A stretch of 64,000 nt of DNA from a virus. The notes beneath the pieces were generated by a model. That model had not been told where the DNA came from and did no database searches. It was given only the letters and a program-made list of their open reading frames with translations. Shown in pieces: positions 19,828 to 46,763 of this stretch. A program made the position numbers and the translations under genes. Each line of letters starts with the position of its first letter. Positions within the stretch are counted from its first letter, which is position 1. The stretch spans positions 106,696 through 170,695 of IMG/VR virus record IMGVR_UViG_3300044959_000348; one strand, given 5' to 3'.

Positions 19828-19835
19828 CAAATAGT

Positions 19836-21749: not shown

Positions 21750-21755
21750 ATTCCA

Positions 21756-21761: not shown

Positions 21762-21773
21762 CTAAAATCATAT

Positions 21774-22010
21774 TCATTTACCTAGTTCTCCTAATCTGTC
21801 ATTCAACTGCTCATTACTCAAGCGAATAATTTGTCTATTTTGTTTGTCCTTTTCCATTTCTTTTTGCTTCTCTTCTATAAACTTCTCTATGATATCTAAA
21901 GTGTATTCCTCAACATTATGCAAACCTAACTTATTTAGATTTATTTTTAGCTTGATTAAGTCCTCTATTTTCCATGAAGATACGAAAAAAGTCCTTGGCC
22001 AAAGCACCAT
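21774..22010 (-). CDS. Small Lys/Glu-rich helical protein, 78 aa, overlapping the gp26-like gene
   Basis: The frame overlaps the last 80 nt of the gp26-like gene in the +1 frame and continues 157 nt beyond it. The part after the overlap is a convincing amphipathic helix (LGLHNVEEYTLDIIEKF and EEKQKEMEKDKQNRQ). No start codon lies in the non-overlapping part before MEKDK, so expression needs either initiation at ATG 22010 within the upstream gene or a +1 frameshift at the run of T near 21987. Tail chaperone genes of other phages use such extensions, hence the interest. It is not recognised otherwise. Confidence 0.55.
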   Translation of the reverse strand: MVLWPRTFFVSSWKIEDLIKLKINLNKLGLHNVEEYTLDIIEKFIEEKQKEMEKDKQNRQIIRLSNEQLNDRLGELGK

Positions 22011-22758
22011 AGTAATTCACTTTGTTTTTATGACCACACCCTGTGCATACATATGTTTTATCTTCAACAGGTATAGCAATACAATTTATCATAGCATCAA
22101 ATACTGATAAAATATCATCATGCTCTGCATTAATGATCATATCCGCAATACCCATAGGATCTCTTTCAAAACCTATAACAGATAATATTAGAAAAGCCGT
22201 ATCTAAATCCGGCACATTGCCTCTTAGCATTCTAACCAACTGTGGCAAATGAGTAGCTATAAACTCGCCGGTAGGATATTTGCACTGATACTCTTTACCA
22301 CCCACAGTAATAGAAAACAAAGGACTCTCAATCTTTTTGAACTTCACATCAGACATATGCACTTTAAAGCTGTGATTCTTACCACACTCCACACACTCTG
22401 TATTCAAAACAAACTCCATGTCCTTATTTATAGAAATACCCCAGAACAAATAAAACGCATAATAAATATCAGGCAAAAATAAATGAGGCAGCTTATCCAC
22501 AAACATACTCACAAAGTTATAAATGTATAAAAAAATCGTAAATTCATCCGCATTTCTTGGGAAGTTACGACCATAGTATAAAAACCCAGCAAAGTTTATA
22601 GGCCTGATATACACTTGCTCAAAAGTATAAACAGACCCCAACGGAAAAGTCTGCGTCAATATAGGTATCCCAACAGGAGTCGATATCTTATCAGCACCAG
22701 CTCTCAATCTTTCCTTTTCACCCCAGGTCATAAATTCTTCTACCTTAGGATTTTGCAT
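21931..22758 (-). CDS. T4 gp26-like baseplate hub/tail assembly chaperone with zinc site, 275 aa
   Basis: The layout follows the T4 baseplate hub protein family (gp26-like): an N-terminal part with 'LGSVYTFEQVYIRPI', a helical middle, then a paired zinc knuckle C122-VE-C125 in FVLNTECVECGKNHSFKV followed by LFSITVGGKEYQCKYPTGEF, and a second knuckle C238-TG-C241 (YVCTGCGHKNKV) near the end. In T4-like phages this protein helps build the baseplate hub and is not in the mature virion. It lies among other minus-strand tail genes. The match is by pattern and order of segments, not by exact identity. ATG 22758 is 6 nt after TAGAAT. Confidence 0.6.
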   Translation of the reverse strand: MQNPKVEEFMTWGEKERLRAGADKISTPVGIPILTQTFPLGSVYTFEQVYIRPINFAGFLYYGRNFPRNADEFTIFLYIYNFVSMFVDKLPHLFLPDIYYAFYLFWGISINKDMEFVLNTECVECGKNHSFKVHMSDVKFKKIESPLFSITVGGKEYQCKYPTGEFIATHLPQLVRMLRGNVPDLDTAFLILSVIGFERDPMGIADMIINAEHDDILSVFDAMINCIAIPVEDKTYVCTGCGHKNKVNYYGALAKDFFRIFMENRGLNQAKNKSK

Positions 22759-27722: not shown

Positions 27723-29452
27723 ACAGGAATTATATTGATATGCATCCCACTGATATAATTGAAATAACTAACAACTAACGGATTCAACGACCCAACAAAT
27801 TGTCCATTAGCATCAAAAGTATAAGACTGCATCGCATTTATAAACGCTTTCACATCTATAAGTTTCATATACCCAGAATTACGAGAAGTAGGATAAGACC
27901 AATACAGATTGTCACCTAACGGATCTACTGCTCTACCATTCAAAACCATCATGTTATTACTCACATACACACGAACATTGGTAATATCATCAATAGCTAC
28001 ATGATTCACAATAAACTGAGCAACATCCCTGAAATCTATGCTCTTCATTATCACATTCTGATACCTGCCGATTATATTGTTAATGGTAACCCTAAAAACA
28101 TCCACATCTATAAACTTGCCTTCTATATCTAGCCTCATAGTGTTCGGAGACCCAAATATTATAAAAACATCATAACTATTCAATAAACTATACACATCTA
28201 TTTGATAAATATTTCTGCTACTATCCAAATATTTAAACCGGTTGATATCACCTGTATACGATAAAATGTCTAAAATATTATCACTATTTTTAAGTAACAA
28301 AGTTCTAAACGGAGACATGTAATCCAAATAGTAAGACGATAATCCCGATATAAACTCATTCACTTCAGCCTCACTGTTTGTAGTGCTAAAAGAATTAGCA
28401 ATAAGCACAATAAAATATACTATTTTTCTGAAGTTCAAAGAATTCACATCATTGGCACTCAATATGTACGGTATGACTTCAATATCTAAAATATTGCTCA
28501 CATTTTCCTGCAAACAAGCAGCTATATCACTAACACTCCTAATGTATCCATTGTACTTATACTTCTTTGTAACACTTTTCATTGATGCTAAACGATATCC
28601 AGGAACTTCTGCACTGGTAAGATTATAATAATACCCACCAGAACTATTGGGCTTCAAAGCAATACTAAGTGGAAGTCGCAAACGATTAACCATACGCTCA
28701 TTCCAATAACTCATCATATCAGGAGGATTTCTATTGGGTATATTAAGATACTTGATAGTAACCTCCTGACTCCCATATTTTTGTAAAAAACGCTCAGAAA
28801 AATACAAACGCACGGTTTCTAAATAACTACGAAGTATAAGAATATCATACGAGTCATCCGTTTGAACCACATCATAAAACTCTAATACATTATCAGTCAT
28901 AGGAAAATATCTATCAAAAAATATATCTGCTGTGATCACCTCTCGCACAGATATTGCAATAGCACTGGATATCTTCCCTCGCTCAGGCTCTATTTCTATG
29001 ACCTTAGAAGCATTTTTAGTCACCTGAAACATGGCCTGATCAGCAAAGTATATCTTAACATTATTTACAGATAACACATTTGAACCAATACTAAACCTGC
29101 CCTCAGGCCATAAATAGAAAAATATATTGCCCTCATTGTACAACAAAGTGCCAGGCTCTATTGCTACATTTCCGTTGATAACAGCAGAAATGCTCTCTGC
29201 TAACAAAAACGGATGCACTAACGCCTCAACATTCTGAAACTTATCCAAAGCATACGTGACCAACATGTCCCTAAACATCGTCTGTGCTATATTACCAATA
29301 TACGCCGCATTCCCAACGCTGTCTAAATAGTTGTTATACAAAGCATCTAAACGCCTGATATATGGAGATAATAAATCTACAAGATTATCCTTAAGCCTAT
29401 CATCAAAATAATTCGGTAAAATGTTTCGCAAATCTTTGCTGATACTAAGCAT
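27719..29452 (-). CDS. Putative baseplate/tail structural protein, 577 aa
   Basis: It lies between the transglycosylase gene (8-nt overlap) and the 314-aa gene (4-nt overlap), so the three form one translational unit. The N-terminus (LVDLLSPYIRRLDALYNNYL) and the later YLETVRLYFSERFLQKYGSQ resemble the general build of baseplate wedge proteins, but no conserved motif allows a name. Much of the rest is alternating strands with Asn/Tyr/Ser. A baseplate role is inferred from the operon with a tail lysozyme. Confidence 0.7.
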   Translation of the reverse strand: MLSISKDLRNILPNYFDDRLKDNLVDLLSPYIRRLDALYNNYLDSVGNAAYIGNIAQTMFRDMLVTYALDKFQNVEALVHPFLLAESISAVINGNVAIEPGTLLYNEGNIFFYLWPEGRFSIGSNVLSVNNVKIYFADQAMFQVTKNASKVIEIEPERGKISSAIAISVREVITADIFFDRYFPMTDNVLEFYDVVQTDDSYDILILRSYLETVRLYFSERFLQKYGSQEVTIKYLNIPNRNPPDMMSYWNERMVNRLRLPLSIALKPNSSGGYYYNLTSAEVPGYRLASMKSVTKKYKYNGYIRSVSDIAACLQENVSNILDIEVIPYILSANDVNSLNFRKIVYFIVLIANSFSTTNSEAEVNEFISGLSSYYLDYMSPFRTLLLKNSDNILDILSYTGDINRFKYLDSSRNIYQIDVYSLLNSYDVFIIFGSPNTMRLDIEGKFIDVDVFRVTINNIIGRYQNVIMKSIDFRDVAQFIVNHVAIDDITNVRVYVSNNMMVLNGRAVDPLGDNLYWSYPTSRNSGYMKLIDVKAFINAMQSYTFDANGQFVGSLNPLVVSYFNYISGMHINIIPV

Positions 29453-30518
29453 ACTCTGATGGTATCATGGTTATAGGATTGAAGTCTCGTATAGTTACGC
29501 CACTATCATAGTATGGCGCAGGATGCAAACTGACATTGTATACAATATCTGCGCTTTTCCTCTTTTCAATTGCTTCTACATACGATAGGGCAGGAATCTT
29601 TTGATTCCCTAAATCTACTGATTCTTGGAATGTATAAATATGTGGAGAAGATATACCTAATTTACTCCATATTGCATTGTACCCTAACATTTGTTGAAAA
29701 CTTGGAAGTTGCGACACACTATACTTCCTAAAAACCTTATTTTGATTATAGTCACTGAAAGCAGGCCACTTGGCCTTAGGCCACTTTCGTGGATCTTCCC
29801 CAAATTTTTCAACCCAAACGTCAACAAGAGCTTTGACAGCATTCCCTAAAACATCTACAGCATACGGAACCGCATCAAAGTAATGAGGATTCTTATTACA
29901 ATTAAACTGAAGACCGCAATAATGAGACATTATGGTGCGAAAGTACAAACCATTATTCAAATATCTGAAATTCGTGAAAATCAAACGCTGATACGCAATA
30001 CCACCAGCAACATTCCAAGGGGCCACTACCCTGTAAAAACCACTCAAAATTTCAAATTCTTCTAAAACTTTATATTTACTATCCAAATCAGGGCCCCGAC
30101 TGTTGTACGCATAATACAGATTTTTATATACGTCTATATTAAACTGCAAGTTCACACTATACTCGCGCGCAACAATCTTCACAGGATCCAGCCATGTATC
30201 ACCTAAAAATTGAAATAGTCCTTTGGCATCAGAACCTGAGCTCACCATAACTTGCCAACGATAGCGAGACTCCTTAAAAGCTTGTGTGGCCAATATCCAC
30301 GGATGAAGACCACTGGCATACCCTAAATTCATTATGGCCATCACTAAACTAGCAGTCAAACTATTATTCAGTAAATATCTAAATTCGTTTTTGTAAAGAT
30401 TATAAGTTGCCTGTGTCACTACGGCCTTTATAACAGATCCATTATGTCTATCCCTTACTATTCGATCACAATCTGCATGAACAACAACATTAGAATCCTT
30501 AAGTGAAGCACAACTCAC
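29445..30518 (-). CDS. Lytic transglycosylase (tail-associated lysozyme), 357 aa
   Basis: Residues ~70-110 carry the SLT/goose-lysozyme-like site: LHPWILATQAFKESRYRW with the catalytic Glu83, then SGSDAKGLFQFLGDTW. It should cut peptidoglycan during DNA entry, as tail lysozymes do. The rest (110-357) has no recognised domain; a Trp/Pro/Lys-rich piece (GEDPRKWPKAKWPAF) lies near 245. No signal peptide is evident (MSCASLKDSN), which fits a virion-borne rather than secreted enzyme. GTG 30518 is 7 nt after TACAAT. It heads the three-gene overlapping operon with probable baseplate genes. Confidence 0.82.
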   Translation of the reverse strand: MSCASLKDSNVVVHADCDRIVRDRHNGSVIKAVVTQATYNLYKNEFRYLLNNSLTASLVMAIMNLGYASGLHPWILATQAFKESRYRWQVMVSSGSDAKGLFQFLGDTWLDPVKIVAREYSVNLQFNIDVYKNLYYAYNSRGPDLDSKYKVLEEFEILSGFYRVVAPWNVAGGIAYQRLIFTNFRYLNNGLYFRTIMSHYCGLQFNCNKNPHYFDAVPYAVDVLGNAVKALVDVWVEKFGEDPRKWPKAKWPAFSDYNQNKVFRKYSVSQLPSFQQMLGYNAIWSKLGISSPHIYTFQESVDLGNQKIPALSYVEAIEKRKSADIVYNVSLHPAPYYDSGVTIRDFNPITMIPSEYA

Positions 30519-30755: not shown

Positions 30756-33296
30756 TCAAATAGCTACCGTAATAGAAGGTACAGAACGCTTCAAATACTC
30801 CTTCAAATCAAAGTGTATTCCCTTCTTATCGCCCCCATTGAATACTGATAAATCACTCTCATAAATAGCAGACACATAGTTATCAGGTACTTTATCATAA
30901 GAACCTAAACTCATAATAAACGCATCTAAGTCTCTATCACTCTTTGATAACCTGAAACCTATACTTCCTGATGACTTATTTCTTGCACGAGCAACCCTCG
31001 ATAAAATATGCTGTATAACTTGCCCAGAATGCAATATCTGCTTCCTATACTCATACACCATCTCATGCAAATTCTTTACACTTATCTTACTAGGGTCCTT
31101 GTCTAAGCTATCCATAAAAATCTTCAGCTTAAATATCTTAGACAGCAAGAGCAAAACAGCAACAGTAGCCTGATTCTCACTAAATACCTTATAAGAATTC
31201 AACAATAAAGTATCCATGCCATACCCTTCCTCTAACAAAGCTATCACCTTCTTCAAATCCATTCCTTTCAACCTATTTTTTACGGCCTCATAATCTGCCT
31301 TCAAATGTGATAAATCATTATCTCTAGAACCAAACGAAAAGATAGCTAAATCAGCAAATATAATCTTACAACTAATAAACGGCTCACCCGTATCTGCATC
31401 GTACCCAATAAGCACACCAGTATCAGAGTCAAATTTGACTTTTACAGCCGTCGTATATTTTGCTATCTCCTTCATTTGTTCTGTACTTAACACACGATCT
31501 GCAAATTCATTAGTATTGAAGTCAGCAACCTTTTTGTTATAAGGAGACAAGAAACTGACTTTATAAGGTACCTTAGCATTATTCAAACCATCATAAAATC
31601 CTTTCACAAAACCGTTGGAAACCTCATAAAATAAATCTGTCAAATGCATAATACCAATAGCCCAATCATAATGCACGTGCTCACTAACACCCAACATCTT
31701 GTTCAGACCAGCAGACAAGGTAAAGAAATGCTTAAATAAAGTACCCCAAGACTTACCCACATCATAAGCGCTTTGATTGCCACCATGAACATTACTGAAA
31801 AATTTATTGATTTTGGGCTTGTTTGCTACATACTCAGGCGTCAAATTGCCCTTGTTAGACACACCTTTTGTGCTCAAAGCACCACTCGTCACAGCCTCCT
31901 TCATACTCAGCTCAATATAATACCCTCCACCAGCCGCAGACCTTACAATAGGTAAGCCACACAAATAAGAAAACGGAGCCTCAGAACAATAACCTATACC
32001 CATCAAATGCCCAAATGATGAACTAATCAGATGCAAATTGCGCATAATACTGGCCAAAAGCATCGATAATATCACATTCTTGTCTTTCGAAACATACAAA
32101 GCCTCCGCTACTCTCTTTATTATATCCAACAACTTTTCATCCTCTAAATGCGCTTGTAGATTGGAACTGATGCTCATTATGTATTCTATATCACTATTGG
32201 TTAGGGCTTTGTCAATATCCTTAGATATTTGAGAATACAATCGATCAATATGATCACTTGACATAGCCGCAGATAAAAAGCTATGCATCGACCCCGAATC
32301 GTCTATAGATATAAGAATAGACTTAGCCACAGTAGCTTGCAAATAATCACTCTCAGAACTCCCTACCATAGGATTCAAAACCAAAGAACCACTATCACCA
32401 CTTCGAATAGTCTCTGCTCTTTGCGCCTGAGCCGGAGAACGCTCTCTCTGAACAGAACTAATCACATCTTCAGATAATTTAGTAGCCTTAGCAGACTTGC
32501 TTTCAAACATATCATTCATAGTCTGCCCTTGCTTGATAATAGTAGATAACAAATACTCAATGACCACAGCAATATCTGTATTACTATCCTTGACTAACGC
32601 AGATAAAATGCCACGTGCGCCACTAGCTTCACCAGTAACTTCCCTACTCTCATTATCCTTTATAGTGCGCTCAATATACTTCTTATCAATATCATCCTTT
32701 TCTCCGGGTCGTGGAGTATACACTTTCTTTTCAAAATCAGGAACCCCATCAACTATCTTATGTTCGTCTTCCACTCCTTGCTTATTTAGCTTATCCAATT
32801 GTTCTTGCAAATCTTTTATCACATCATCAAGAGAACCATCTTCATTCATCTCCTTAAGCTGCTCTATTGCCTCTTGCACATCTTTTGCTTTTTTGCCCGT
32901 TCCTGTGTCGTCACCTTCTTTATTGTCACTTTCGTTTTCCTTTTCATCATCTCCCTCTTTTTCATCTTCTTTATCCTCTTGCTCTTTCTCGTCTTCTCCT
33001 TTATCTTTTTGTTCTTCCTTTTCCTTTTGATCTTCACCTTCTCTTTCCTTGTCTTTATCTTTTTCCTCGTCTTTCTCTTCTTGTTTCTTTTTATTTTGCG
33101 GCTCGCCTTCCTGACCTTTGCCTTTACCTTTCTTGTTCTTAGGCTCATCTTCAGGCGGAGTCGGAGGCTTCAAAGGCGGCTGCGGACCCGAACTGCCTCC
33201 ACCACCAGCACTAGGAGGAACTATATTAAATTTGCTCATTATGTCTAAAGCAGTACCTACGAGCTGCTTTTCCAACAACTTGTTTTCCCTAATCAT
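30756..33296 (-). CDS. VWA-domain protein with charged N-terminal region, 846 aa
   Basis: Start at ATG 33296 (CATAAT 8 nt upstream, TTCGG before that); a TTG 9 nt further up is less likely. Residues 30-55 are Gly/Pro-rich, 55-135 almost only Lys/Glu/Asp, then helical. At 326-337 the sequence SILISIDDSGSM carries the metal-binding MIDAS motif D-x-S-x-S (Asp332, Ser334, Ser336) of von Willebrand A domains. VWA proteins with an acidic/charged stretch before the domain typically work with MoxR-type AAA+ ATPases (CobT with CobS, for example). Here the ATPase gene is two genes upstream in the same direction. Role in virion assembly or in handling a host or conflict target cannot be decided. Confidence 0.8.
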   Translation of the reverse strand: MIRENKLLEKQLVGTALDIMSKFNIVPPSAGGGGSSGPQPPLKPPTPPEDEPKNKKGKGKGQEGEPQNKKKQEEKDEEKDKDKEREGEDQKEKEEQKDKGEDEKEQEDKEDEKEGDDEKENESDNKEGDDTGTGKKAKDVQEAIEQLKEMNEDGSLDDVIKDLQEQLDKLNKQGVEDEHKIVDGVPDFEKKVYTPRPGEKDDIDKKYIERTIKDNESREVTGEASGARGILSALVKDSNTDIAVVIEYLLSTIIKQGQTMNDMFESKSAKATKLSEDVISSVQRERSPAQAQRAETIRSGDSGSLVLNPMVGSSESDYLQATVAKSILISIDDSGSMHSFLSAAMSSDHIDRLYSQISKDIDKALTNSDIEYIMSISSNLQAHLEDEKLLDIIKRVAEALYVSKDKNVILSMLLASIMRNLHLISSSFGHLMGIGYCSEAPFSYLCGLPIVRSAAGGGYYIELSMKEAVTSGALSTKGVSNKGNLTPEYVANKPKINKFFSNVHGGNQSAYDVGKSWGTLFKHFFTLSAGLNKMLGVSEHVHYDWAIGIMHLTDLFYEVSNGFVKGFYDGLNNAKVPYKVSFLSPYNKKVADFNTNEFADRVLSTEQMKEIAKYTTAVKVKFDSDTGVLIGYDADTGEPFISCKIIFADLAIFSFGSRDNDLSHLKADYEAVKNRLKGMDLKKVIALLEEGYGMDTLLLNSYKVFSENQATVAVLLLLSKIFKLKIFMDSLDKDPSKISVKNLHEMVYEYRKQILHSGQVIQHILSRVARARNKSSGSIGFRLSKSDRDLDAFIMSLGSYDKVPDNYVSAIYESDLSVFNGGDKKGIHFDLKEYLKRSVPSITVAI

Positions 33297-33304
33297 ACTT
33301 ACCA

Positions 33305-33321
33305 ATTATGCTAAACCCGAA
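33305..33321 (-). promoter_or_regulatory. Promoter with TTCGG for the VWA gene
   Basis: TTCGG, 6 nt, CATAAT, 8 nt, ATG 33296. Confidence 0.6.
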
Positions 33322-33325
33322 ACCA

Positions 33326-36145
33326 TTATACACGAACTCTTCTTTTTCTGCGTTGGCTGCTCTTGCTGCCAACTTTGATTCTTTTGGAAAAATGTCCTGA
33401 AGAACTAGCGCTCGCATGAATATACATTGCAATATCTTCTATATCACGAGCGTATTCAGGATATTTTTGTGCAAGATTCTCAACTGCATTCATAGCCTCA
33501 TTCGTGTTCTTCAAAAACTCCTTAGCGGTGGGAATTTGATTGATAATAGTACTAAACACATTCAACTTCTCCAATAACCTATTGATTTCTTTAGGATCCT
33601 GTGGCAGTGAAATAGAAGCATATTGTTCATATACTTCCAAGGTTTGTTTTTGTAAAACACCATAAGACTCCATGAAAAATTTATATAAATCATCTTGATA
33701 TTGATGCAATATCTTAAGCAACACTTCAACCAATTGCTTTTTCGTCATAGGGACTTCTTTCTTATTAGGCTCTTGTGGCTTTTCTTCCTCTTCTTCTTGC
33801 TCTTCTGGATGCACCTCAGGCCACAGCTCCCATATATTCTTAGTCGTTATAGTTTTAATAAACTCATATACAATCTTATTGAGCACAGTATCAATATTAT
33901 TCTGCATTTGCTCTATCTGAGATAAAATGTCTTGTTCTTGCTGTGTATCTTTCTTTTTAGAACCATCAGTATCTCCACTAATCTTGTTTATCAAGTCATT
34001 TTTCTCTTTTACTAACCTTTTCAGTTCTTCATGATCTGTAATCATCTTATGTAGTTTTGCGCCATACTCATAAGCACGCATTTGACATCCAACAGCATTA
34101 TAAAACACACTAAAATCGCTAACACTGGTAGGATACAAATAAGGAACAATGTGCTCAAAAGACGCTATATTGATAATCTTATTCGTAGAAGAATACACAT
34201 TCTGCTTCACAAGACTAACAAATTTGTCTCTAATAGCATCTAAATCTTCAGATAGCTTCTCAATCGTATTGAATAATGCTTCCCCTAAACTATCCGCACT
34301 AAAAATCTTGACCACATCCGTAGAAGAAGACTTAATGTCTTCTGCAATATTATACGCCCAGTTAGTGCTCAATATGGCAAACATCTTCACTAATAAAAAC
34401 GGAGTTCCAGCGCCAGCAAACACATTCAAACTACCTGAATTATATAAAGTTAAAACCTCACCAAACTTGTCGTTTTTTACATCACTAGCTCCACTATATT
34501 TACTGCTAACAGTATAATGTAAGTTCTGTAAATTTTGCCTAAATCCTTTGTTACCATCATTAGCCGTATCTAGCATATCATATACCCCTAAAGATACGGA
34601 ATAAGAAATCATTTGTGACAAAGAAGACTTCAAACTACCGATATTAATGTGCTTTACATTTTTTGATAAAACTAAATGCTCAGCATAATCTTCAGGACCA
34701 CCAGACACCTGAATAATAGCCGAAAGACCACGCAATAATATATTCATAGTATTAGTATAATAATCCGCTCCTTCCGGCTTTCTCAAAATCTGTGAAATAA
34801 AATTCAATCCACTAACATCACGCATCCCATACACTAAACTATCAAAATCCCTTATTCTCTCATACAACTTAATCAAATAAGGTGTCATAGCAACAGACCA
34901 CCCTGCAATATAATCAGCAGACAAAGCAATATCACCAAGTGAATATATAATCACAGACGCATAGGCTTCATATAATACAGGCTTCAAATCACGAATAATA
35001 TCAGCAAAACTTTTATCTATGGAAACACCCATATACTTCTTCAATACACCCATCAACCGACTCTTATCATTCAACAATTCATGTTTCAACGAGTACGCCA
35101 CTTCGCCCGCTACAGCACGAAATAGCATGTTCAAAAATTTATCCTGTAAATCATCATCTATAAGCCCAAACATATATCGCATTACTTTGTGAAAACCATA
35201 GTTATATTCAAAGTTATCATTAATCATTCTAAAGACCTCATTCAACCCAAGCGCTCCTTCCATTAGCCTTTTGCTCTGAACACCCTTTACTAAAAGATTA
35301 TACACACTATCATAAATCTTGACCCATAAGTCATCGCTGGATAACATATTATCCAAATCCTCTGGCCTCATACTGCCACTTAAAATAGGATAAACTAACT
35401 CACCAAACAACGCAGGTAAAGGATCAGAATCTACATCAAAATTAGACTTCTTGTATAAACCATAGAAAGTACTATATTGATCATCCTCATGCACAGACAG
35501 CAAATACAAAATACAACGCAGCACCATACCCACATAAAAAACAGCAGCAGTAAAACCAGCAGCTCCTGCCTCAACTTCTGCCCATCCTCGCACAAAGTTA
35601 TTGTACGGATACAGGAAAAATACAGAAGGCGCCTTACTATATCTCATAGCTACTGTGTTTCTAGGAAAATCAGCAGAATAAGATTCAGATAACACATTAA
35701 ACCCAGAACTTTGCACATCTAAATAATAGTTAATCATCCTTTCAAACCCTTTAGAATATACATGAAAATTAACAGCATGCGTTACCTCATGCACTACTAC
35801 ATTGAAAACAAAAGCAGCAGTGCCACAAAGATACTTACTATCACTCATTCCAGTCTCTTGTAAGATAACATCCTTGTCAATTAACTGTCCTGTAAAACTA
35901 TCTAACACTTTCAACTTCGTTTCTGAAATATTTATAATATTTGTTAACTTCAACTCATCTCCACTTGTTACCATCACGCTATTGCTCTTCTTATACTTCA
36001 AACTATCTTGCAAAGTAGCATAAGAACCACCTTTCTCAGATTTTATAGCAAAGTTAATAGAAACATTAGAATGTGGAGCTTTACTGTCTTTAGCAAGCTT
36101 ATTAGTAGCAAAGTTCAGATATTTCAATACCTCTTTAGATACCAT
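33326..36145 (-). CDS. HExxH metalloprotease-like protein, 939 aa
   Basis: Residues 113-128 read VFNVVVHEVTHAVNFH; HEVTH (His119-Glu120-His123) is the zinc-binding HExxH helix of metallopeptidases, with hydrophobic residues before it as usual. FVRGWAEVEAGAAGF near 185-199 could supply the third ligand (Glu190 or Glu192), as in gluzincins. The rest is long and helical, with a Lys/Glu-rich segment near 770 (PEEQEEEEEKPQEPNKK) and a basic C-terminus. It lies between the AAA+ and VWA genes with gaps of 13 and 29 nt, pointing to one functional unit. Substrate unknown; capsid or tail processing or cleavage of a host protein are options. Confidence 0.72.
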   Translation of the reverse strand: MVSKEVLKYLNFATNKLAKDSKAPHSNVSINFAIKSEKGGSYATLQDSLKYKKSNSVMVTSGDELKLTNIINISETKLKVLDSFTGQLIDKDVILQETGMSDSKYLCGTAAFVFNVVVHEVTHAVNFHVYSKGFERMINYYLDVQSSGFNVLSESYSADFPRNTVAMRYSKAPSVFFLYPYNNFVRGWAEVEAGAAGFTAAVFYVGMVLRCILYLLSVHEDDQYSTFYGLYKKSNFDVDSDPLPALFGELVYPILSGSMRPEDLDNMLSSDDLWVKIYDSVYNLLVKGVQSKRLMEGALGLNEVFRMINDNFEYNYGFHKVMRYMFGLIDDDLQDKFLNMLFRAVAGEVAYSLKHELLNDKSRLMGVLKKYMGVSIDKSFADIIRDLKPVLYEAYASVIIYSLGDIALSADYIAGWSVAMTPYLIKLYERIRDFDSLVYGMRDVSGLNFISQILRKPEGADYYTNTMNILLRGLSAIIQVSGGPEDYAEHLVLSKNVKHINIGSLKSSLSQMISYSVSLGVYDMLDTANDGNKGFRQNLQNLHYTVSSKYSGASDVKNDKFGEVLTLYNSGSLNVFAGAGTPFLLVKMFAILSTNWAYNIAEDIKSSSTDVVKIFSADSLGEALFNTIEKLSEDLDAIRDKFVSLVKQNVYSSTNKIINIASFEHIVPYLYPTSVSDFSVFYNAVGCQMRAYEYGAKLHKMITDHEELKRLVKEKNDLINKISGDTDGSKKKDTQQEQDILSQIEQMQNNIDTVLNKIVYEFIKTITTKNIWELWPEVHPEEQEEEEEKPQEPNKKEVPMTKKQLVEVLLKILHQYQDDLYKFFMESYGVLQKQTLEVYEQYASISLPQDPKEINRLLEKLNVFSTIINQIPTAKEFLKNTNEAMNAVENLAQKYPEYARDIEDIAMYIHASASSSGHFSKRIKVGSKSSQRRKRRVRV

Positions 36146-36151
36146 ATAGCA

Positions 36152-36157
36152 ATTATA
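36152..36157 (-). promoter_or_regulatory. Leaderless-type promoter for the HExxH gene
   Basis: TATAAT, 6 nt, ATG 36145, immediately after the stop of the ATPase gene. Confidence 0.75.
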
Positions 36158-36158
36158 C

Positions 36159-39100
36159 TTATTCCTTTATGATAAACTCAATAGGACTGATAGGCACCGC
36201 TTTTGCTTTTGTCAATCCACTATACACAGCAGCAAAATACTTCCGCTTAGAAAACGACTTCATTTCTGACTTCTGTGCTTCAGCATCATTTTCACTAATA
36301 CCCTTCGCACCAAACAACTCTTTCTTGGCTTTCTCTATTTCAGAAACATGTGCATATCCACTTTCACTGTTTGTTTGTATGTAGCTCAAAACAGCCTTAG
36401 CAAAGTCCGTATATGGATACTTAACAGCCACAAGCAGCAGCAACAAATGCAGATGCTTACATCTGTCTGATATTACAGACAAAAATGTTTCTATTTTATT
36501 GGAAGAAGAGGCAATAGATCTTATAGTCTTCCTCATTTCCTCTATATCTTCTGTTTGGAAAGTATAAGGCAACAAAGTATAAGCCAATATCTGACCAAAA
36601 GCCCCAACATTTCCTTCTACACGCAAATGGGATATCACCTGAAGCATAACTTTCAAATCATCCGAATCAGATAAGTAAGGTATCAAAAATCTACTGGAAC
36701 CATTCTTTAATGCTAAATCAATACTTTCTATGATATAAGTTTTACTGTGATTTATGTAAGCCATCTTATTCATATTGCGCTGTGACATAATGTTTTGATC
36801 ATTCACAGAACACTGCGGAACAATAAAGCCAAAATATCTAATACAATTTTCAGCACCCACAGACGCCCCTTCAAAATCTACATATATCTTTGTAGGCACA
36901 AACATAAAGCTACCTTTTGCATCTAATGCATCAATAAATACCCACTTTTTATTTAGTTTGCTACCTCTATTGACATTATTATGCTTAAGATTTGTGTTCA
37001 TAAGAGAAATAATATCTTGTGCTAACGTCGATAAATAAGGGAATGTCACCTTCACAGAATCTAAACTTCTTACTAAAGCATCTGTACCACTATCAGATAG
37101 CACTTTGATGGCATTCTCAAAAAGCAACATCAAGTCTAAACTAGTCTCAAAGAATAAAGTCGCATTAGGATTACCATTTATTATCGATATTATATCCTCT
37201 GTGCTAAACAACTCCTTAACCATTTCATCCGTATCAAAATATTTCCTTTTATACACCTCTAAGGCTTGTACAATCTTGACAACTAAATCAGAGGGATTAC
37301 TATACTCATAAGATACTATCTCTCTAATCAAATCACTTCCAGGCTTATTATCCGCAGCAACATTTGCAAATAGATGTTCATTACCTCCACTCATGCCAAT
37401 AGTGCCATTAAATGTGCCAAGCTTGTTAGCAAATTCTATCATATGCTTTTCAATCATACTCATAACATCCGCAGAACCCTTTTGTGATTTTGCATAAGTT
37501 GCATTACCATACGCTACTGCAATTATGGAAGCCATCATGTTGCGTATGTACTCAAACATACTAATAGCCACAGTCATTATATCTTCACTTGCCTTGACAG
37601 ACTTAGGTTTTCTGCCTCTTTTACCAGTAGTAGGCGTATAAGACTTCAATTTGTTGACAAGCACTAAAAGATAAATAAACATAAGATTCAAGTTCTTACA
37701 TAAAGTGCTCAGAATAAAATCCAATAAAACATAATAATCCACTTCCTCTACGGTAACATTAGACAACATATCTACAACCAGTTTCTTAAACTCTTTGTAG
37801 GTTTCATTATATGCGTCAAAACTTCCAGCCATCTTTTTCATAACATCAAATAAAGCAGATTTTCCTTCGTGTCTGCTGACTTGACCTGTTTGACTCTTAA
37901 ACGTAATGTCTCCACTCGTCACTTTGCCTACTTTCTTAGGGTCTAAATCAGGGAGTATATCATCTATACTCAAAGTACCAGATGCCTTACCCTTCTCTAT
38001 GATAGTTTTTACATACTCATATACTTTATAATCAATGCCAATGTTAGAAAGTAATACACTTCTATGCTCTTGTATATTTCTGCCTTGTAATTCGCTTCTT
38101 ATAGACGATAAATCTTTTGTATAAAACATGTACATCAAGTTAGATAAAATAGACAACGCTAAATTAGACGCCGTAGATTTCACCTGATTGAAGAAAGGCA
38201 CAAGAAGCACAAAATCTAATAAAGCACCATTCTTGATAATTACATCTAAGTCAGCTGCACCTGAACCATCTATCAAAGCCGCATAATCAGTACTATACAC
38301 ACCAGCATTAGGCTTGGTGAGCTTATAATATAACAACTTTTTAAGCGGCTTATAATGATACTCTATCTTTATGTCTTCCTCAGTTTTCAAATGCCACGAA
38401 ATAAGATTTTTGTATAAACTGCCAAACAAAACTGGTCGATAGTCAGAAACTATCTTATTATACATATCCAACAACACACTCACCACTTCATCTTTTGACT
38501 TACCTAAATTCTCTACTTTATTCATAGGCAAAAATTCATCCAATATATCTTTCAGGTTTTTGTCTACAAAATACATCCTAAAAAGATTAGCGGCATACAT
38601 ATCAATAGTTCTATATGCCTTAGCAATATCAGAAGTCACCGTTCTTTGGCTTTGACGAAATACATTGGTCAGAATAGCCATAAACTTGTTTGGCCCAACA
38701 TCAGCTAATGTATTCAGCTTCATGTCTTCACCCACAAACTTATTGATTAACGCCATGAAAACAAGAGCTGTGGCTTTGTAGATCATTATTTTATCTTCAA
38801 CAGTCACACCTTCAACATCTAAAACAGGGAACATAATATACCCACCACTCGGTACAACTTCTAACATGCGCGCAAGTCCTTTTATGCTACCTATAGTCAA
38901 TATAGCCAAAGCCGCACTCTCATATTGCGATAAAGCATTCTGGAGTATCTTTATAGTATCATCACTGCTGCTCACAAACATTACACCTAATCTAACAGGG
39001 TAATTGGCTAAATCAAAATAATCCAAATCCTCAAAATACACACGCTCATGCACACCTTTGTCTGTGCTTACAGACAATAACTTTCTAAGTGAATCATCTA

Positions 39101-42053
39101 CAGCATAAACTAGCGGCATAGCATAAGAACCAACCTCCACATTTACCAAATCTAAAGCTACACTATCAAAAATACGAGACAGATTAACAACACCATTTTC
39201 GTTGTTTCTATATACACGTAACACAAACAGTAAAGACGCAAGTGTCAAAAACATAGCATTATACAAAGGCTCAGAAGCATTAGCACCCTTTTCTGCACGA
39301 ATCGTATCAGTGGCAGCATTGATAGCATTACCTATCATGAAAGTCAAGCTATCAAGAGCATTACCACCAATATGTGCATTTCGCTCATCTAATGCAGCAT
39401 AAGCATACTTTCGCATTACAGTCTGAACTTGATAATAAGCATTCAACAACGTAGGAACTATAGAGACAGAAAACTTCACGATTGAAATAACATCAGCATT
39501 TTCAGCCAAGAACGTTTTGTAACTATCATAAAATCTTTTTACAATCTCAGGAGCATTCTCATGCCCAACATACACTTTCTTATAAAATTCATCTAACGCA
39601 CTCAACAATATGTTCAAATAAGCCACTTCACTTTCTTTTTGCACTTTCTGATGTATTATATTGACATCCTTCCCTACATAGTCAGTAGCATAGTTAACAA
39701 TATGCCTTAATACGCCAGCACTCTGCTTAATCTTTTGTTCATTTGCTCTCGGAGCAACTACAGTATAGTAATAGTCAAATGGATTATCACCCTTAACGCC
39801 TTCAGTATAAGCTTGTATCAAATACTTCTTAGCCTTTGCAACCGTTTCAGGCATAGCATCACTGCTAACAATCGCATTAAACACATCTAACTGATCATCA
39901 ATAGAAGTTCTTTGCACAAACTCCGCATCCGGATTCACAAAATACAATCGAAGTCTGTCAAAGAAAGCTTTCATGCTATCAACAGATATCTTAGTCTTAG
40001 AACCAGGGTTATTCAGATTGTTGAAGAACTGCACGGCCGGAGCATTGCCCGCTAACACTAAAAGCATGTTCGGAGGGAAAATATCCATCCTATTTGCTAA
40101 ACCATCCCAAATTGAAGCAACAATAGGAGCACCTTCACCAGAGAACAAATGAAACACTTCATCTAAAAATAACACATAAATAGGAGGATTATCCACCATT
40201 TTAATATCAGCCACAATCTCCTTAGACTGTATCTCTTTATTGACAATAGAACTTACACTTTTCTTGTACTTCAAATAAGCACTTCTCGCTTCGTTTATAA
40301 AGCTTTGCACTACCGATGGAAACACAAAAACCAACTTATTCTCCTCTCTGTTTTGCAAAATATCACTTATCTTATTGCTATCCCCTAACTTTTGCCCTAA
40401 GAAATAGAGATTATACACATCTTCATAGCTCCACTTAAAGTACTTTTCACTAGCTATAGTATTATTCACAATCCTATCCATATAAACAGAAGCAACACCA
40501 TTAGAAAAACTATGCACCGTTTTGAAAACCTCTGCATACTTAACCAAATCAGTGCGAGCAGAGCTTATAATAGATAAAGCTATATCAGATAACTTGGTCT
40601 TTGCTTTGGTTTCCACATTATCACTGAATGCCTCTAAGCGCTCACCCTCATCTTCTTGGAACTGTGCTAAAACGATTTTGACAACAGCTGTATTTACAGG
40701 ATTTATTCGCTTGTTCGCATATTGTGATATCAACTTATACACACCATCTGCCTTGTCACTGATAGTCAAAGAATCTACCCAATTCATGTACTTCTGGACA
40801 AAAATACTTTCTTCATCAGATATAAGCTCAGATTGCGCCGCAAAACCTTTGCAATACTGTCTTACTATTTCATAAGCATCACTCCCAAGATTTTCTCTGG
40901 CTTTCCCAGAGAAATCTGTAAAGTGCTCATCACTAAAACTCACCAACCCTTCTGCACTACCATAAGATAATTGAACCTTTTCACTACCACATATTGCCGT
41001 AAGCATGCGACCTAAATCAGAAACCAACTTGGCTTTGTTTTGAATCCTATCATGAAACTGCAAAAACATGTCATTAGCAAAAGCTACAAACGGGAACAAT
41101 AGGACTAACAAAATAGAGCCTTCATACTTCAACAACACACTTTCGATCGCTGCTTCACCTTCCTGTTGATACTTCTGAATAGATTGCTGCATGCTTACAG
41201 CTAAGTAAGACAGCAAAAATGTCATGTAATAAGATAAAGCATGCACTTTGCCTTTTGATAAATCCAAATAAGACAACAACACGCTTCTGTCCTCTACTTT
41301 GACAACACTCACCGAATCTAAAAACAAAGCAAACACACGAATCAAAGCCGCATAGTTATAAGTTTTTAAAAGCTCCGTTACAGCTGCCACATACTTTTGA
41401 ATATCTGCCTTACTATGCCCATAATGCAAAGCAGCACCAATATCATACAACATTTGATAAAAAGCATTATCTTTTATAGATGCTATTGACTTGTTCAAAA
41501 AGTTAGGTCTTCGACTTACATATGTACCATCAGAAAATATAGTAGCCGCTACATCAGAAAACACAAAATCTTCCAAAAAGCTCAACTTATCTACATTGCT
41601 GGAAAAATAATCCATAGCCTTCTGCCATTCAGCATTTACACCGCCTTCTAATTCTTTTTCTTTTATTACAATCGTCACACCAAACGGAGCAGAGAGAGGG
41701 TCATAGCGCATCATATCGTGTGATAAAAACTTAGTAATACTTCCATTCTTAACCATTTCTTCTAATACGTCGACTATACTCTTAGTTTTACCAGTACCAG
41801 GATACGAAACGAAAGCAGGTGTTCTGGCAACCATACCAGAACTACGAGCAAGAGCACTGGATAAAAGATTATGCCTCAAATCTCCTATAGCCTCAGCTAA
41901 AACAGTAGGGATGTCTTTGGCATTGATATAAAAAGGCTTTGTGCTTGTAAAATTAGCAAGAAACCTATCAAAAGCTTCATACTCCGGATTTTTATATAGA
42001 GCCTTTTCTAATTTTTCTACTTGCTGCAGAATATCCTCTTGTGTTACAATCAT
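36159..42053 (-). CDS. Giant MoxR-like AAA+ ATPase, 1964 aa
   Basis: Walker A is FVSYPGTGKTKSIVDVL (Lys89) near the N-terminus. Walker B is PPIYVLFLDEVFHLFSGEG (around residue 625-645), sensor 1 is MLLVLAGNAPAVQFF (~665), and FFDRLRLYFVNPD (~697) fits the arginine-finger helix, all as in MoxR/RavA-type ATPases. The distance of ~540 residues between Walker A and B is far beyond the usual 60-70, so a large domain is inserted in the ATPase core. The remaining ~1250 residues are helical, without known domains. MoxR ATPases remodel protein complexes together with VWA partners; the VWA gene lies downstream with a metalloprotease-like gene between. ATG 42053 is 6 nt after TAAAAT. Confidence 0.82.
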   Translation of the reverse strand: MIVTQEDILQQVEKLEKALYKNPEYEAFDRFLANFTSTKPFYINAKDIPTVLAEAIGDLRHNLLSSALARSSGMVARTPAFVSYPGTGKTKSIVDVLEEMVKNGSITKFLSHDMMRYDPLSAPFGVTIVIKEKELEGGVNAEWQKAMDYFSSNVDKLSFLEDFVFSDVAATIFSDGTYVSRRPNFLNKSIASIKDNAFYQMLYDIGAALHYGHSKADIQKYVAAVTELLKTYNYAALIRVFALFLDSVSVVKVEDRSVLLSYLDLSKGKVHALSYYMTFLLSYLAVSMQQSIQKYQQEGEAAIESVLLKYEGSILLVLLFPFVAFANDMFLQFHDRIQNKAKLVSDLGRMLTAICGSEKVQLSYGSAEGLVSFSDEHFTDFSGKARENLGSDAYEIVRQYCKGFAAQSELISDEESIFVQKYMNWVDSLTISDKADGVYKLISQYANKRINPVNTAVVKIVLAQFQEDEGERLEAFSDNVETKAKTKLSDIALSIISSARTDLVKYAEVFKTVHSFSNGVASVYMDRIVNNTIASEKYFKWSYEDVYNLYFLGQKLGDSNKISDILQNREENKLVFVFPSVVQSFINEARSAYLKYKKSVSSIVNKEIQSKEIVADIKMVDNPPIYVLFLDEVFHLFSGEGAPIVASIWDGLANRMDIFPPNMLLVLAGNAPAVQFFNNLNNPGSKTKISVDSMKAFFDRLRLYFVNPDAEFVQRTSIDDQLDVFNAIVSSDAMPETVAKAKKYLIQAYTEGVKGDNPFDYYYTVVAPRANEQKIKQSAGVLRHIVNYATDYVGKDVNIIHQKVQKESEVAYLNILLSALDEFYKKVYVGHENAPEIVKRFYDSYKTFLAENADVISIVKFSVSIVPTLLNAYYQVQTVMRKYAYAALDERNAHIGGNALDSLTFMIGNAINAATDTIRAEKGANASEPLYNAMFLTLASLLFVLRVYRNNENGVVNLSRIFDSVALDLVNVEVGSYAMPLVYAVDDSLRKLLSVSTDKGVHERVYFEDLDYFDLANYPVRLGVMFVSSSDDTIKILQNALSQYESAALAILTIGSIKGLARMLEVVPSGGYIMFPVLDVEGVTVEDKIMIYKATALVFMALINKFVGEDMKLNTLADVGPNKFMAILTNVFRQSQRTVTSDIAKAYRTIDMYAANLFRMYFVDKNLKDILDEFLPMNKVENLGKSKDEVVSVLLDMYNKIVSDYRPVLFGSLYKNLISWHLKTEEDIKIEYHYKPLKKLLYYKLTKPNAGVYSTDYAALIDGSGAADLDVIIKNGALLDFVLLVPFFNQVKSTASNLALSILSNLMYMFYTKDLSSIRSELQGRNIQEHRSVLLSNIGIDYKVYEYVKTIIEKGKASGTLSIDDILPDLDPKKVGKVTSGDITFKSQTGQVSRHEGKSALFDVMKKMAGSFDAYNETYKEFKKLVVDMLSNVTVEEVDYYVLLDFILSTLCKNLNLMFIYLLVLVNKLKSYTPTTGKRGRKPKSVKASEDIMTVAISMFEYIRNMMASIIAVAYGNATYAKSQKGSADVMSMIEKHMIEFANKLGTFNGTIGMSGGNEHLFANVAADNKPGSDLIREIVSYEYSNPSDLVVKIVQALEVYKRKYFDTDEMVKELFSTEDIISIINGNPNATLFFETSLDLMLLFENAIKVLSDSGTDALVRSLDSVKVTFPYLSTLAQDIISLMNTNLKHNNVNRGSKLNKKWVFIDALDAKGSFMFVPTKIYVDFEGASVGAENCIRYFGFIVPQCSVNDQNIMSQRNMNKMAYINHSKTYIIESIDLALKNGSSRFLIPYLSDSDDLKVMLQVISHLRVEGNVGAFGQILAYTLLPYTFQTEDIEEMRKTIRSIASSSNKIETFLSVISDRCKHLHLLLLLVAVKYPYTDFAKAVLSYIQTNSESGYAHVSEIEKAKKELFGAKGISENDAEAQKSEMKSFSKRKYFAAVYSGLTKAKAVPISPIEFIIKE

Positions 42054-42092: not shown

Positions 42093-42590
42093 TCACGATT
42101 CCATACTGTTTTGCTCTTTTATTTTTTGTGCTACATGTTCAACGATTTTCTCTTTGTTTTCTTTCTTTTCTTCATATTTGTCCCATTCTATACGCACATA
42201 ATTCATATTGCCTATTTTGCCTATTGCTTTCTGCATATGTATTTCTTGCACTTTGCTATCATCATCCTTGATAAACAACCTAAAAACTACATCTTCAAAA
42301 AACTTTACATAGTTTGATACATCTCTACGCTTATTACTGTTGAAAATAAAAAAATAACGAAACCTATAAGCATCATACACCAAAAATTTATGTTCACATG
42401 CATTACCATACCTTTTTTGAATATAATCATAAACAATAGACTTAGCTTGTATGTACGGCTTGACACGACCTTTCCTGTTGCGATAAAGATTATTTACTGA
42501 TAAAGCACCAGCAAAAAGAAATTCAATATAGTTATCACCAAAAGACAAAATTTCTACCCGTATTTTATACTTTCTCTTTTTTGAACCCAC
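42093..42590 (-). CDS. RusA-like Holliday junction resolvase, 165 aa
   Basis: RusA enzymes cut four-way DNA junctions to clear branched DNA before packaging. The family signature is present: SVNNLYRNRKGRVKPY near the start, then NKRRDVSNYVKFFEDVVF (Asp90, Asn93, Lys96, Asp100) and LFIKDDDSKVQEIHMQKAIG (Asp109-111), ending in a strand YVRIEW. The second aspartate of the RDxDN motif is serine here (Ser92), one of the three carboxylates known as essential in E. coli RusA, so activity may be altered. GTG 42590 is 6 nt after GATAAT; the overlapping ATG is out of frame. The C-terminus is an added Lys/Glu helix. Confidence 0.78.
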   Translation of the reverse strand: MGSKKRKYKIRVEILSFGDNYIEFLFAGALSVNNLYRNRKGRVKPYIQAKSIVYDYIQKRYGNACEHKFLVYDAYRFRYFFIFNSNKRRDVSNYVKFFEDVVFRLFIKDDDSKVQEIHMQKAIGKIGNMNYVRIEWDKYEEKKENKEKIVEHVAQKIKEQNSMES

Positions 42591-42596
42591 ATAGCA

Positions 42597-42602
42597 ATTA
42601 TC
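42597..42602 (-). promoter_or_regulatory. Leaderless-type promoter for the RusA-like gene
   Basis: GATAAT, 6 nt, GTG 42590; spacing selects GTG over the out-of-frame ATG. Confidence 0.65.
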
Positions 42603-42645
42603 CAAATGTCACAAAACAATAGATAACACTAAAAAAAGAGTGCCA

Positions 42646-43744: not shown

Positions 43745-44275
43745 GTGACAGATTTAGAGCGTCTGATATTAGACACTGTTAGAACTATACATATCATTAA
43801 AAAGTATTATCAGTTCAGTGCAGTGTATTTTGATATTTTAGGATACATGGTTAACAGAGCATTTGATATAGAAGAGCACATAAAATACAATATTATGAGC
43901 ATAGCCAATGTAGCAAAGGGCACATCAAAGATATTTTATGCTTTCAAACTACAAACTAGTGATAATCCGCTATATCCTAATGGCAAATTCTTTACATTTG
44001 ATAAAGTCGTCTGGTTATATGAGCATGCTAACAACATATATCACTTAGAAATACATAATCTCGTCGCTTATACAAAACTAAGTATAACGCAGTTTATAAA
44101 AATCATATACTTATTTGCACAGGATTATATGATAATGAACAGAATGGTCTTGCATTTATCTGAAATCACAACTATATTAGACAACTTGTATGTTAGAACG
44201 ACGAGAAGTTTGAATAGAGAATATGTTTCTCGTCATTTTATATTCACTGCCAAACGATTCAGCATTTCAGCATAA
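43745..44275 (+). CDS. Unknown protein, 176 aa, upstream of tail sheath
   Basis: Start at GTG 43745, 6 nt after TATAAT; an in-frame TTG upstream would overlap the box. The product is helical and rich in Ile, Tyr and aromatic residues (LVAYTKLSITQFIKIIYLFA); no motif recognised. Its TAA stop lies inside the CATAAT box of the tail sheath gene, so the two are packed with no spare bases. By position it could be a tail terminator, neck or sheath-associated protein. Confidence 0.68.
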   Translation: MTDLERLILDTVRTIHIIKKYYQFSAVYFDILGYMVNRAFDIEEHIKYNIMSIANVAKGTSKIFYAFKLQTSDNPLYPNGKFFTFDKVVWLYEHANNIYHLEIHNLVAYTKLSITQFIKIIYLFAQDYMIMNRMVLHLSEITTILDNLYVRTTRSLNREYVSRHFIFTAKRFSISA

Positions 44276-44276
44276 T
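44271..44276 (+). promoter_or_regulatory. Leaderless-type promoter for the tail sheath gene
   Basis: CATAAT, 6 nt, GTG 44283; contains the TAA stop of the preceding gene. Confidence 0.75.
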
Positions 44277-44282
44277 TATAGT

Positions 44283-46763
44283 GTGATTCATCTGCTAATA
44301 GAGATTGACCCGAATAATCCACCATTAGAGCCATGGGTTGCATATGATTTGCAGGTTGTTTATCCAGAGGTAAACCTTACTATATTACCTGGGCCTCCTA
44401 AGATTGGAGGTGTAATACGATCTTATTTGTATTCACAATGGTATCATTCTTTGACTGATGAGTTAGAACAAGAAATGGCAAGAAGAGTAGTACATATTAC
44501 ATCAACATCAGAATTTATAGATAAGTTTATGAAAGACCCCAATACTGGAAACAGTTATACACCTGCTCAAATAATGAGTGAGCATTTATCTCTCAAAAAC
44601 AGTTACCATTTGGCGGGACAAGTAGATTTGTATCTATCTCCTGATGTTGGAGAAAAACAAGTGACACAAAGTACATATCTGGTTGACCCAAAGCGTCTGT
44701 ACGCATTAGGCACCATGGATTTGTTGTATTACGATGGCACTAATTTAAATACAGTTCCGTTATATATGCTTGGTGTCTATGATACAAATACAGGCTTAGT
44801 GGAATATTATGCGCGATTACGTACATATTATGCAGGTATATTACCACCTAACTTTACTGTATCAGACTTGATTAATAATCTATTATCTTCGCTTCCTGGC
44901 TTTAGTTTGACACTAACAGACCAAGGCAGCAACAACTATGCTTATACATTTTCTGCACCCAATAACAACATTCATACATACCAAAATCAGCAATATATTG
45001 AGTATTCTGCATTAACCACATCGAACATAACATTTACTGTTTTGATAAGTGATAATGACCACAATTTATTGTTTGGAAACTTTGCTTCTAAAGTGTGTAT
45101 TGTTTTTTCCATTCAATCTGGTAATATTTATGCATATCTATGTGCACAATTGCCAAATGCAGTGGTTTATAACGACAACAATATAGGAGCTCGTATATTA
45201 GATGCAAATGGTTCTGTGCTCAATTCGCCATCCAGTTACAGTGATTATTATAAGCAACTGGTAACCAGAATATTATCAATAAATAGCACAACAGGCCCAG
45301 CACAAATGACACAATTGGTTGGTGTTACTTTAAGTCAAACCTCTACTATGGTAGGCATATTTAACCCTCTAATCGCTAATGCTTTTAATACTAACAACAC
45401 AAACACAACTATATATCCAGGCAATTTTGTTACATCTTTTGATACAGACCTAGATGGATTTGGCGAATTTTACATAACAGATGGAACAAATAGTACAAAT
45501 ATATCATATGACTACTTTTTCATTAATGTAAATTATGATACAAGCAACAGTCTATTTAATATATCGTGCAATTTTGCTTATACAAATGTTATTATAAATG
45601 ACATTAGTTTGCAACATACATTTTATGCATGTCCTAATAATCTTGCCACTTCTTTCTTTATAAACTCGAATCCTACTATCAATAATACTCAAGATTCAAA
45701 CAGTTTCTTAGCACATAACGACGCTATTTATTTTATTTCCAGCGGCACACCGGTTTGTACGCTGAACTATGTGGGTAATTCTCTTAATTTTTACATATAT
45801 CCTATTATTATAAAGGATGTGGGTACAAATATTGAACAATATATTTATAGTGATATACAGTCTCTTGGCTTATCCTATAACATAGAGCATGCAACTACTG
45901 TTTTGCCTGGTCTAAGAATTCCTGTGCAAGTGCCCACTGTATCTGTTGTATTCCCACCCACTCATACTACTTTCATTGAAGCGTTAGAACGTTTAGACAT
46001 GGTTGATGTCATAATAGACAATGGTTTCACTACAACCAAAAGTAATTTTGATGCTTTGGCTCCGCAAATCATTAGTTGGGCTATGAATTCAGTAGGAGAA
46101 AAGGTCCCTGCTATTGGTGTAGTGAATACGCCTTTCAACACATCAGCCAGTTTCTCACATACTATTGCTATATCTAACATAGGATTTTTGTCCGCCGGTT
46201 ATTACAAATGGGAAGGTTTAGGTGCTCCTTTGATGCTTCCCGTATCCAATTTGTATGCATTAGGTATAACGGGAAAATACAGACGATTTGATGAGTTTAG
46301 TCCTATCTTCACCGAATCTCTGATACCTATTGGCCCTGTGGATAAAGTTTATTCTTCTGCGGAAAGAGAACTGTTGCTAAGCAAGAAAATTAACACCTTG
46401 TATTCGTATAAAGGGTTTTGGCGATTCAATAATAACCTAACCACTGCTGACAATGCTACTTTATTCAAAGAAGAACATCTTAGAAGATTAGCAAATGCTA
46501 TTGCCAGAAATCTAAAGGTGCTTCTGAAACAATATGTTGGTAGGGAAAATACAGACAGACTTCGGAAAGAAGTGGTAACAGCAATCCGTCAAATGCTATC
46601 TACTACGATAGACATAAATAGATACAAGCCAGACGACTATATCATAGTATGTGATGATAGCAATAATACAGATTATTCCAATTACCTGTACGTTGATATA
46701 GCAGTGAAAATGCCTACTTCGGTCAAATATATTACTATTGTAACCATGGCAATGCCTATATAA
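44283..46763 (+). CDS. Contractile tail sheath protein, 826 aa
   Basis: The C-terminal ~85 residues are a clear sheath domain: LRRLANAIARNLKVLLKQYV, TAIRQMLSTTIDINRYKPDD, then YIIVCDDSNNTDYSNYLYVD and closing strands VKMPTSVKYITIVTMAMP; the VCDxSNNT motif is the family hallmark. Upstream, ISNIGFLSAGYYKWEGLGAP and FDEFSPIFTESLIPIG fit the sheath core. Residues ~60-560 form a Thr/Asn/Ser-rich beta region, probably surface-inserted domains that explain the length (T4 gp18 is 659 aa). Shows that the phage has a contractile tail. GTG 44283 is set by the 6-nt rule. It is on the plus strand, unlike almost all other structural genes. Confidence 0.88.
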   Translation: MIHLLIEIDPNNPPLEPWVAYDLQVVYPEVNLTILPGPPKIGGVIRSYLYSQWYHSLTDELEQEMARRVVHITSTSEFIDKFMKDPNTGNSYTPAQIMSEHLSLKNSYHLAGQVDLYLSPDVGEKQVTQSTYLVDPKRLYALGTMDLLYYDGTNLNTVPLYMLGVYDTNTGLVEYYARLRTYYAGILPPNFTVSDLINNLLSSLPGFSLTLTDQGSNNYAYTFSAPNNNIHTYQNQQYIEYSALTTSNITFTVLISDNDHNLLFGNFASKVCIVFSIQSGNIYAYLCAQLPNAVVYNDNNIGARILDANGSVLNSPSSYSDYYKQLVTRILSINSTTGPAQMTQLVGVTLSQTSTMVGIFNPLIANAFNTNNTNTTIYPGNFVTSFDTDLDGFGEFYITDGTNSTNISYDYFFINVNYDTSNSLFNISCNFAYTNVIINDISLQHTFYACPNNLATSFFINSNPTINNTQDSNSFLAHNDAIYFISSGTPVCTLNYVGNSLNFYIYPIIIKDVGTNIEQYIYSDIQSLGLSYNIEHATTVLPGLRIPVQVPTVSVVFPPTHTTFIEALERLDMVDVIIDNGFTTTKSNFDALAPQIISWAMNSVGEKVPAIGVVNTPFNTSASFSHTIAISNIGFLSAGYYKWEGLGAPLMLPVSNLYALGITGKYRRFDEFSPIFTESLIPIGPVDKVYSSAERELLLSKKINTLYSYKGFWRFNNNLTTADNATLFKEEHLRRLANAIARNLKVLLKQYVGRENTDRLRKEVVTAIRQMLSTTIDINRYKPDDYIIVCDDSNNTDYSNYLYVDIAVKMPTSVKYITIVTMAMPI

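Follow-up and report, generated by a model that had tools for sequence, protein, structure and literature searches.

The MoxR ATPase and metallopeptidase-VWA module of phages

A MoxR ATPase adjoining a metallopeptidase-VWA protein has been described in group 2.2 jumbo phages by Iyer et al. (2021), who proposed virion assembly with peptidolytic processing as the role of the pair (PMC7824862). Two phages with related genes came to light when kin records were searched with AAA_5 and DUF2201. One of these, record G013, encodes a MoxR ATPase, followed by one ORF and then by a protein that combines a DUF2201_N metallopeptidase domain (E = 5e-61) with a VWA-like DUF2201 domain (E = 7e-26). This pair corresponds to PHROG 1297 (ATPase) and PHROG 1314 (metallopeptidase-VWA), that is, to gp24 and gp25 of phage N4, which are listed among the core genes of N4-like phages (PMC7650795, PMC4193335). 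The peptidase-VWA protein matched 703 phage records and the ATPase 810, which places this module in ~700-800 sequenced phage records, and in most loci examined the ATPase gene lay just upstream of the peptidase-VWA gene on the same strand. Of 16 phage DUF2201 proteins examined, 14 contained HExxHx4H, and AGN stood at the sensor-1 position in most of the PHROG 1297 ATPases examined, while several homologues of N4 gp24/gp25 have a charged linker ahead of the VWA domain. A functional or experimental test of the module was not found in the literature searched. In PHROGs, PHROG 1314 is named "HNH endonuclease", a doubtful name that is contradicted by its Pfam DUF2201_N and DUF2201 domains and that has been carried into many phage records.

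The second of the two, Rhizobium phage RHph_TM39 (Kleczkowskaviridae), has the module split over three genes on one strand (EVB32_252/255/256), which encode an ATPase of 1174 aa, an HExxH protein of 336 aa and a VWA protein of 507 aa whose N-terminus is Pro-rich and acidic. In single-target searches all three matched the fused family significantly (E = 4e-22, 1e-5 and 7e-7; PHROG 1297 and 1314), and the split trio was carried by 10 Rhizobium phage records; relatives of the RHph_TM39 peptidase were not found in IMG/VR. Since the pair had already been described in phages, so had the triad of functions, and the initial annotation of the locus presented below, which knew of no described phage triad of this kind, was wrong in this respect.

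A viral MoxR/VWA pair is also known from Acidianus two-tailed virus (ATV), in which p892 stimulates the p618 ATPase and a chaperone role in tail development has been inferred (PMC4124505). Like the locus presented below, p618/p892 combine a MoxR-like ATPase with a VWA partner, but they have no reported peptidase partner and belong to an archaeal spindle-shaped virus.

Three consecutive genes and their probable relation to the known module

The window, by which I mean the whole stretch of 64,000 nucleotides analysed here, is the final 64 kb of a 170,695-bp IMG/VR virus record with a GC content of 35% and no end repeats. The phage is large, very divergent and contractile-tailed, and the proteome predicted from the whole record comprises 149 ORFs and 53,298 aa. 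Its terminase shared 32% identity with the closest IMG/VR match and 26-31% with those of the cultured phages aligned, and a genome search for terminase kin returned two distant matches only; judged by these terminase identities, the phage is an orphan.

Three genes separated by gaps of 13 and 20 nt, all on the minus strand, encode the ATPase A, the peptidase-like protein P and the VWA protein V (Table 1), which confirmed the trio of consecutive ORFs that had been annotated initially. The motifs quoted for them at that stage (PGTGKT, LFLDEV, LAGNAP, HEVTH and DDSGS) were all present and exceeded chance in shuffles and in a proteome scan. PGxGK[ST], HExxHx4H and [DN]xSGS each occurred once in the entire proteome, and these three unique occurrences fell in the three consecutive genes A, P and V, with the ATPase gene upstream on the same strand, as in most of the loci examined for the known module. 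The reading of the trio as AAA+, HExxH and VWA proteins is thus backed by motifs, order and parallel modules elsewhere.

Table 1. Coordinates of the trio, its motifs and neighbouring genes (window positions).
Feature	Position	Strand	Remarks
ATPase A	36159..42053	-	1964 aa; AAA+-type P-loop, motifs MoxR-like; first of the three genes
Walker A PGTGKT	41784..41801	-	A, aa 85-90
Stretch between Walker A and B	40173..41783	-	A, 537 aa
Walker B LFLDEV	40155..40172	-	A, aa 628-633
Sensor-1-like LAGNAP	40038..40055	-	A, aa 667-672
Peptidase-like protein P	33326..36145	-	939 aa; HExxH
HEVTHAVNFH	35762..35791	-	P, aa 119-128; HExxHx4H as in DUF2201_N
AEVEAGA	35561..35581	-	P, aa 189-195; candidate third zinc ligand, from sequence
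VWA protein V	30756..33305	-	849 aa with TTG start; 846 aa with ATG start at 33296
Charged E/K/D-rich tether	32646..33155	-	V, ahead of VWA domain; 63 acidic and 38 basic of 170 residues
MIDAS motif DDSGS	32289..32303	-	V, aa 335-339
GGNQS	31770..31784	-	V, aa 508-512; possible GGT-motif counterpart, from sequence
LTDL	31632..31643	-	V, aa 555-558; may correspond to TD[GL] of DUF2201 VWA domains
RusA-like resolvase	42093..42605	-	directly upstream of A; phrog_34, E = 1e-4
Tail sheath, divergent	44223..46763	+	846 aa; phrog_23, E = 1e-15; 2.2 kb from the ATPase gene
Transglycosylase-like protein	29445..30518	-	phrog_4067, E = 3e-6
Baseplate-hub-like protein	21931..22758	-	phrog_150, E = 4e-7

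For the ATPase, the set of P-loop, hydrophobic-DE and GN motifs arose in none of 4,000 shuffles of A, and Walker A, Walker B and the sensor-1 GN agreed at the motif level with PHROG 1297 ATPases despite an insert of ~540 aa. So long a spacing of the two Walker motifs would alone be enough to hinder matching by AAA profiles. The AAA_5 profile (PF07728) had no match in the whole record, and Pfam AAA (PF00004) reached E = 0.03 with A, short of the cut-off, only when the insert was removed; PADLOC gave weak partial matches to A (E of 0.006 and 0.06) over short stretches of unrelated models.

HExxHx4H arose in 8 of 20,000 shuffles of P. A [WF]NxAxDxxIN-type motif, which normally comes after HExxHx4H in DUF2201_N, was absent from P, in which only AEVEAGA followed, ~70 residues on; the HExxH protein of RHph_TM39 likewise lacks the exact form of this motif. 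DxSGS[MIVL] arose in 226 of 20,000 shuffles of V, and the motifs C-terminal of DxSGS were imperfect (GGN versus GGT) and spaced unusually wide. Acidic linkers comparable to that of V occur in the VWA protein of RHph_TM39 and the DUF2201 protein of G013. AlphaFold2 models made without an alignment had a pLDDT of 34 for residues 1-330 of P and 37 for the VWA region of V.

The Pfam, PHROG, NCBIfam and PADLOC libraries gave no convincing match to A, P or V, and tblastn of the trio against 50,697 phage records returned nothing beyond a chance match (E = 0.8). Direct relatives of the trio were not found in the IMG/VR viral contigs scanned, nor a relative of A, the only query used there, in the GTDB genomes scanned; these scans, like that of the phage records, reached close relatives only. 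Among 28 IMG/VR records picked via terminase kinship, relatives of A and V were not found, and a motif scan of three records (G001, G006 and G009) found no comparable trio. The proposal that homologues should occur in linkage rather than singly held for homologues within the known families, which are linked, while no direct homologue of the window proteins was found.

Profile comparisons with the known families remained below significance throughout. With hhalign, single window sequences reached a probability of at most 11% against the family profiles. In hmmsearch, P ranked first of the 149 ORFs for DUF2201_N at a non-significant E of 0.08-0.09, V ranked 5th to 7th and A ~30th. Against shuffled sequences, P ranked 1 of 501 for DUF2201_N, a nominal rank only; with the insert removed, V ranked 2 of 501 (nominal, and biased by excision by eye) and A 18 of 501. 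Since the profile matches were non-significant and the single-sequence models useless, membership in the module is argued from motifs, gene order and architecture, by which the trio probably represents the phage MoxR-ATPase/metallopeptidase-VWA module in a form that has diverged, grown and been split. A, P and V would then be homologous to families of the PHROG 1297/1314 type.

Compared with N4 gp24/gp25, the window shows the same succession of an ATPase gene, HExxHx4H and a VWA domain with DxSGS, and V shares the charged linker of several gp25-type members. However, peptidase and VWA are fused in most phages of the N4 type and separate in the window, the proteins greatly exceed those of N4 in size (1964/939/849 aa versus 352/380 aa), and Walker A and B lie ~540 aa apart in A versus ~70 aa in N4 gp24. 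RHph_TM39 resembles the window in the split itself, in gene order and strand, in its large ATPase and in the division between a peptidase and a charged tether with VWA, and the two phages have a terminase family in common (26% identity). In contrast to the window, its ATPase has two AAA modules and lacks the giant insert, ORFs of 233 and 45 aa separate the ATPase and HExxH genes, and its trio lies among non-structural genes; sequence similarity between the two trios was not detectable. What is new here is the split at these sizes (1964, 939 and 849 aa) together with the ~540-aa gap between Walker A and Walker B.

Virion genes near the trio and its possible role

The trio lies between a tail sheath gene and baseplate-type genes (Table 1), and tblastn matched the sheath to those of RaK2-like jumbo phages. 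A member of this group, phAPEC6, encodes a MoxR ATPase (gp265c) and an "N4 gp25-like" protein (gp264c) ~9 kb downstream of its sheath gene (gp277c). Mass spectrometry of phAPEC6 virions detected gp265c (6 unique peptides, 19% coverage; PMC7247149). DNA-metabolism proteins (RecA-like, SSB and thymidylate synthase) appear on the same list, and the peptidase partner gp264c is missing from it (PMC7247149), and residence of gp265c in the particle is therefore suggestive only and may reflect co-purification. The group 2.2 jumbo phages and phAPEC6 resemble the window in their set of parts, in closeness to a sheath gene and in the kind of sheath, but their peptidase and VWA domains are fused and of ordinary size, and close members match the Pfam and PHROG families, unlike the window proteins.

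The structural neighbours, the RaK2-like sheath, the presence of gp265c in phAPEC6 virions and the ATV pair p618/p892 favour ATP-driven, VWA-coupled remodelling and proteolysis in tail or virion assembly or maturation, which I regard as somewhat probable. Of the two roles suggested at first for the locus, virion maturation or attack and defence, maturation gained from the structural neighbours and the phAPEC6 ATPase, while attack or defence found no PADLOC match. In the proposed mechanism, A would assemble into an AAA+ ring on which V would dock via its MIDAS site, bringing a client, with its long charged tether serving as a flexible leash, and P may cut client or scaffold proteins while the ring remodels them. 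The likeliest clients would be tail, baseplate or other virion proteins, and the module would thus act in particle assembly or maturation. The probable components of the module are encoded here as separate, very large proteins, in genes that lie between those for the sheath and for baseplate-type proteins; this supports the virion-assembly proposal, and the natural split offers a handle for telling apart the cutting, the recruiting and the driving part.

Against a virion role stands the location of the N4 pair and the RHph_TM39 trio among early or middle, non-structural genes, and the same three-part machine could instead target host proteins, as an AAA+-coupled protease for host takeover or counter-defence. 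N4 transcribes the pair together with its middle genes (PMC4193335), the RHph_TM39 trio sits among gyrase, tRNA and homing genes, and bacterial MoxR-VWA ternary systems are conflict systems (PMC7159879). I nevertheless consider a host-directed role unlikely, given the lack of a PADLOC match, the core-gene status in N4-like phages, which suggests a basic function, and the sheath and other virion genes that adjoin the genes in both the window and phAPEC6. A bolder form of the virion proposal, which I hold to be very unlikely, takes the trio as a giant, separate AAA+ machine, in which the ~540-aa stretch in the core of the ATPase and the ~1,200 aa at its C-terminal end would build their own cage or scaffold, making the trio a virion-resident remodeller-protease; such a machine would travel with the particle and act in tail maturation or after injection, and would be more than a stretched N4 gp24/gp25.

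It is also conceivable, if quite unlikely, that A, P and V are unrelated phage proteins, for example large structural proteins, that carry short motifs by chance. The absence of family library matches and the uniformly non-significant profile comparisons fit this explanation, while the uniqueness of each motif in the proteome and their occurrence in consecutive genes in the order of RHph_TM39 speak against it. A charged tether with a VWA domain resembles the architecture of CobT-type proteins, and porphyrin biosynthesis is an occasional annotation of phage MoxR-type ATPases (phrog_249); both count for a machine for metal chelation or metalloprotein maturation (CobS/CobT, BchI/BchD or MoxR proper) in which the HExxH protein would play an accessory part. 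This explanation appears highly improbable, as a chelatase large subunit or cobalamin gene was not identified among the window proteins examined and the partner in the window bears a peptidase motif instead.

Other features of the record

Several further proteins were noted on the same record. A 342-aa protein (record 7988-9016) was similar to the tail sheath (window 44223-46763) by blastp, and the phage may thus possess two sheath-like proteins. The protein at window 17871-19463 appeared capsid-like by eye, without database support, and had no match in tblastn. Beside the sheath region, window 49204-59136 encodes a 3310-aa protein that is rich in Ser, Tyr and Asn and has no transmembrane segment; its 1,098-aa C-terminal part had no Pfam match. 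A 1268-aa protein (record 18378-22184) reads on inspection as a bacterial-type DNA polymerase III alpha subunit with a PHP start.

Two groups of mutually similar proteins were seen by blastp, one of 9 (record 37320-38345, 40371-41606, 44119-46725, 73526-74323, 83015-83776, 96535-97059, 100705-101613, 104498-104800 and 105077-107569) and one of 4 (record 75727-77265, 77273-78775, 97762-100035 and 121067-121765); subtracting 106695 converts the last of these into window coordinates. The long members of both groups resemble DNA methyltransferases in sequence, and such a set is unusually large for a single phage. Finally, uncharacterised proteins of ~350 aa whose short N-termini are alike (e.g. 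ILSQSRSRRK) form clusters at window 6756-7808, 7928-8989 and 8997-10118 and at record ~79.5-92.6 kb, and blastp ties among five of them, three inside the window and two beyond it, point to a possible fast-diverging multigene family.
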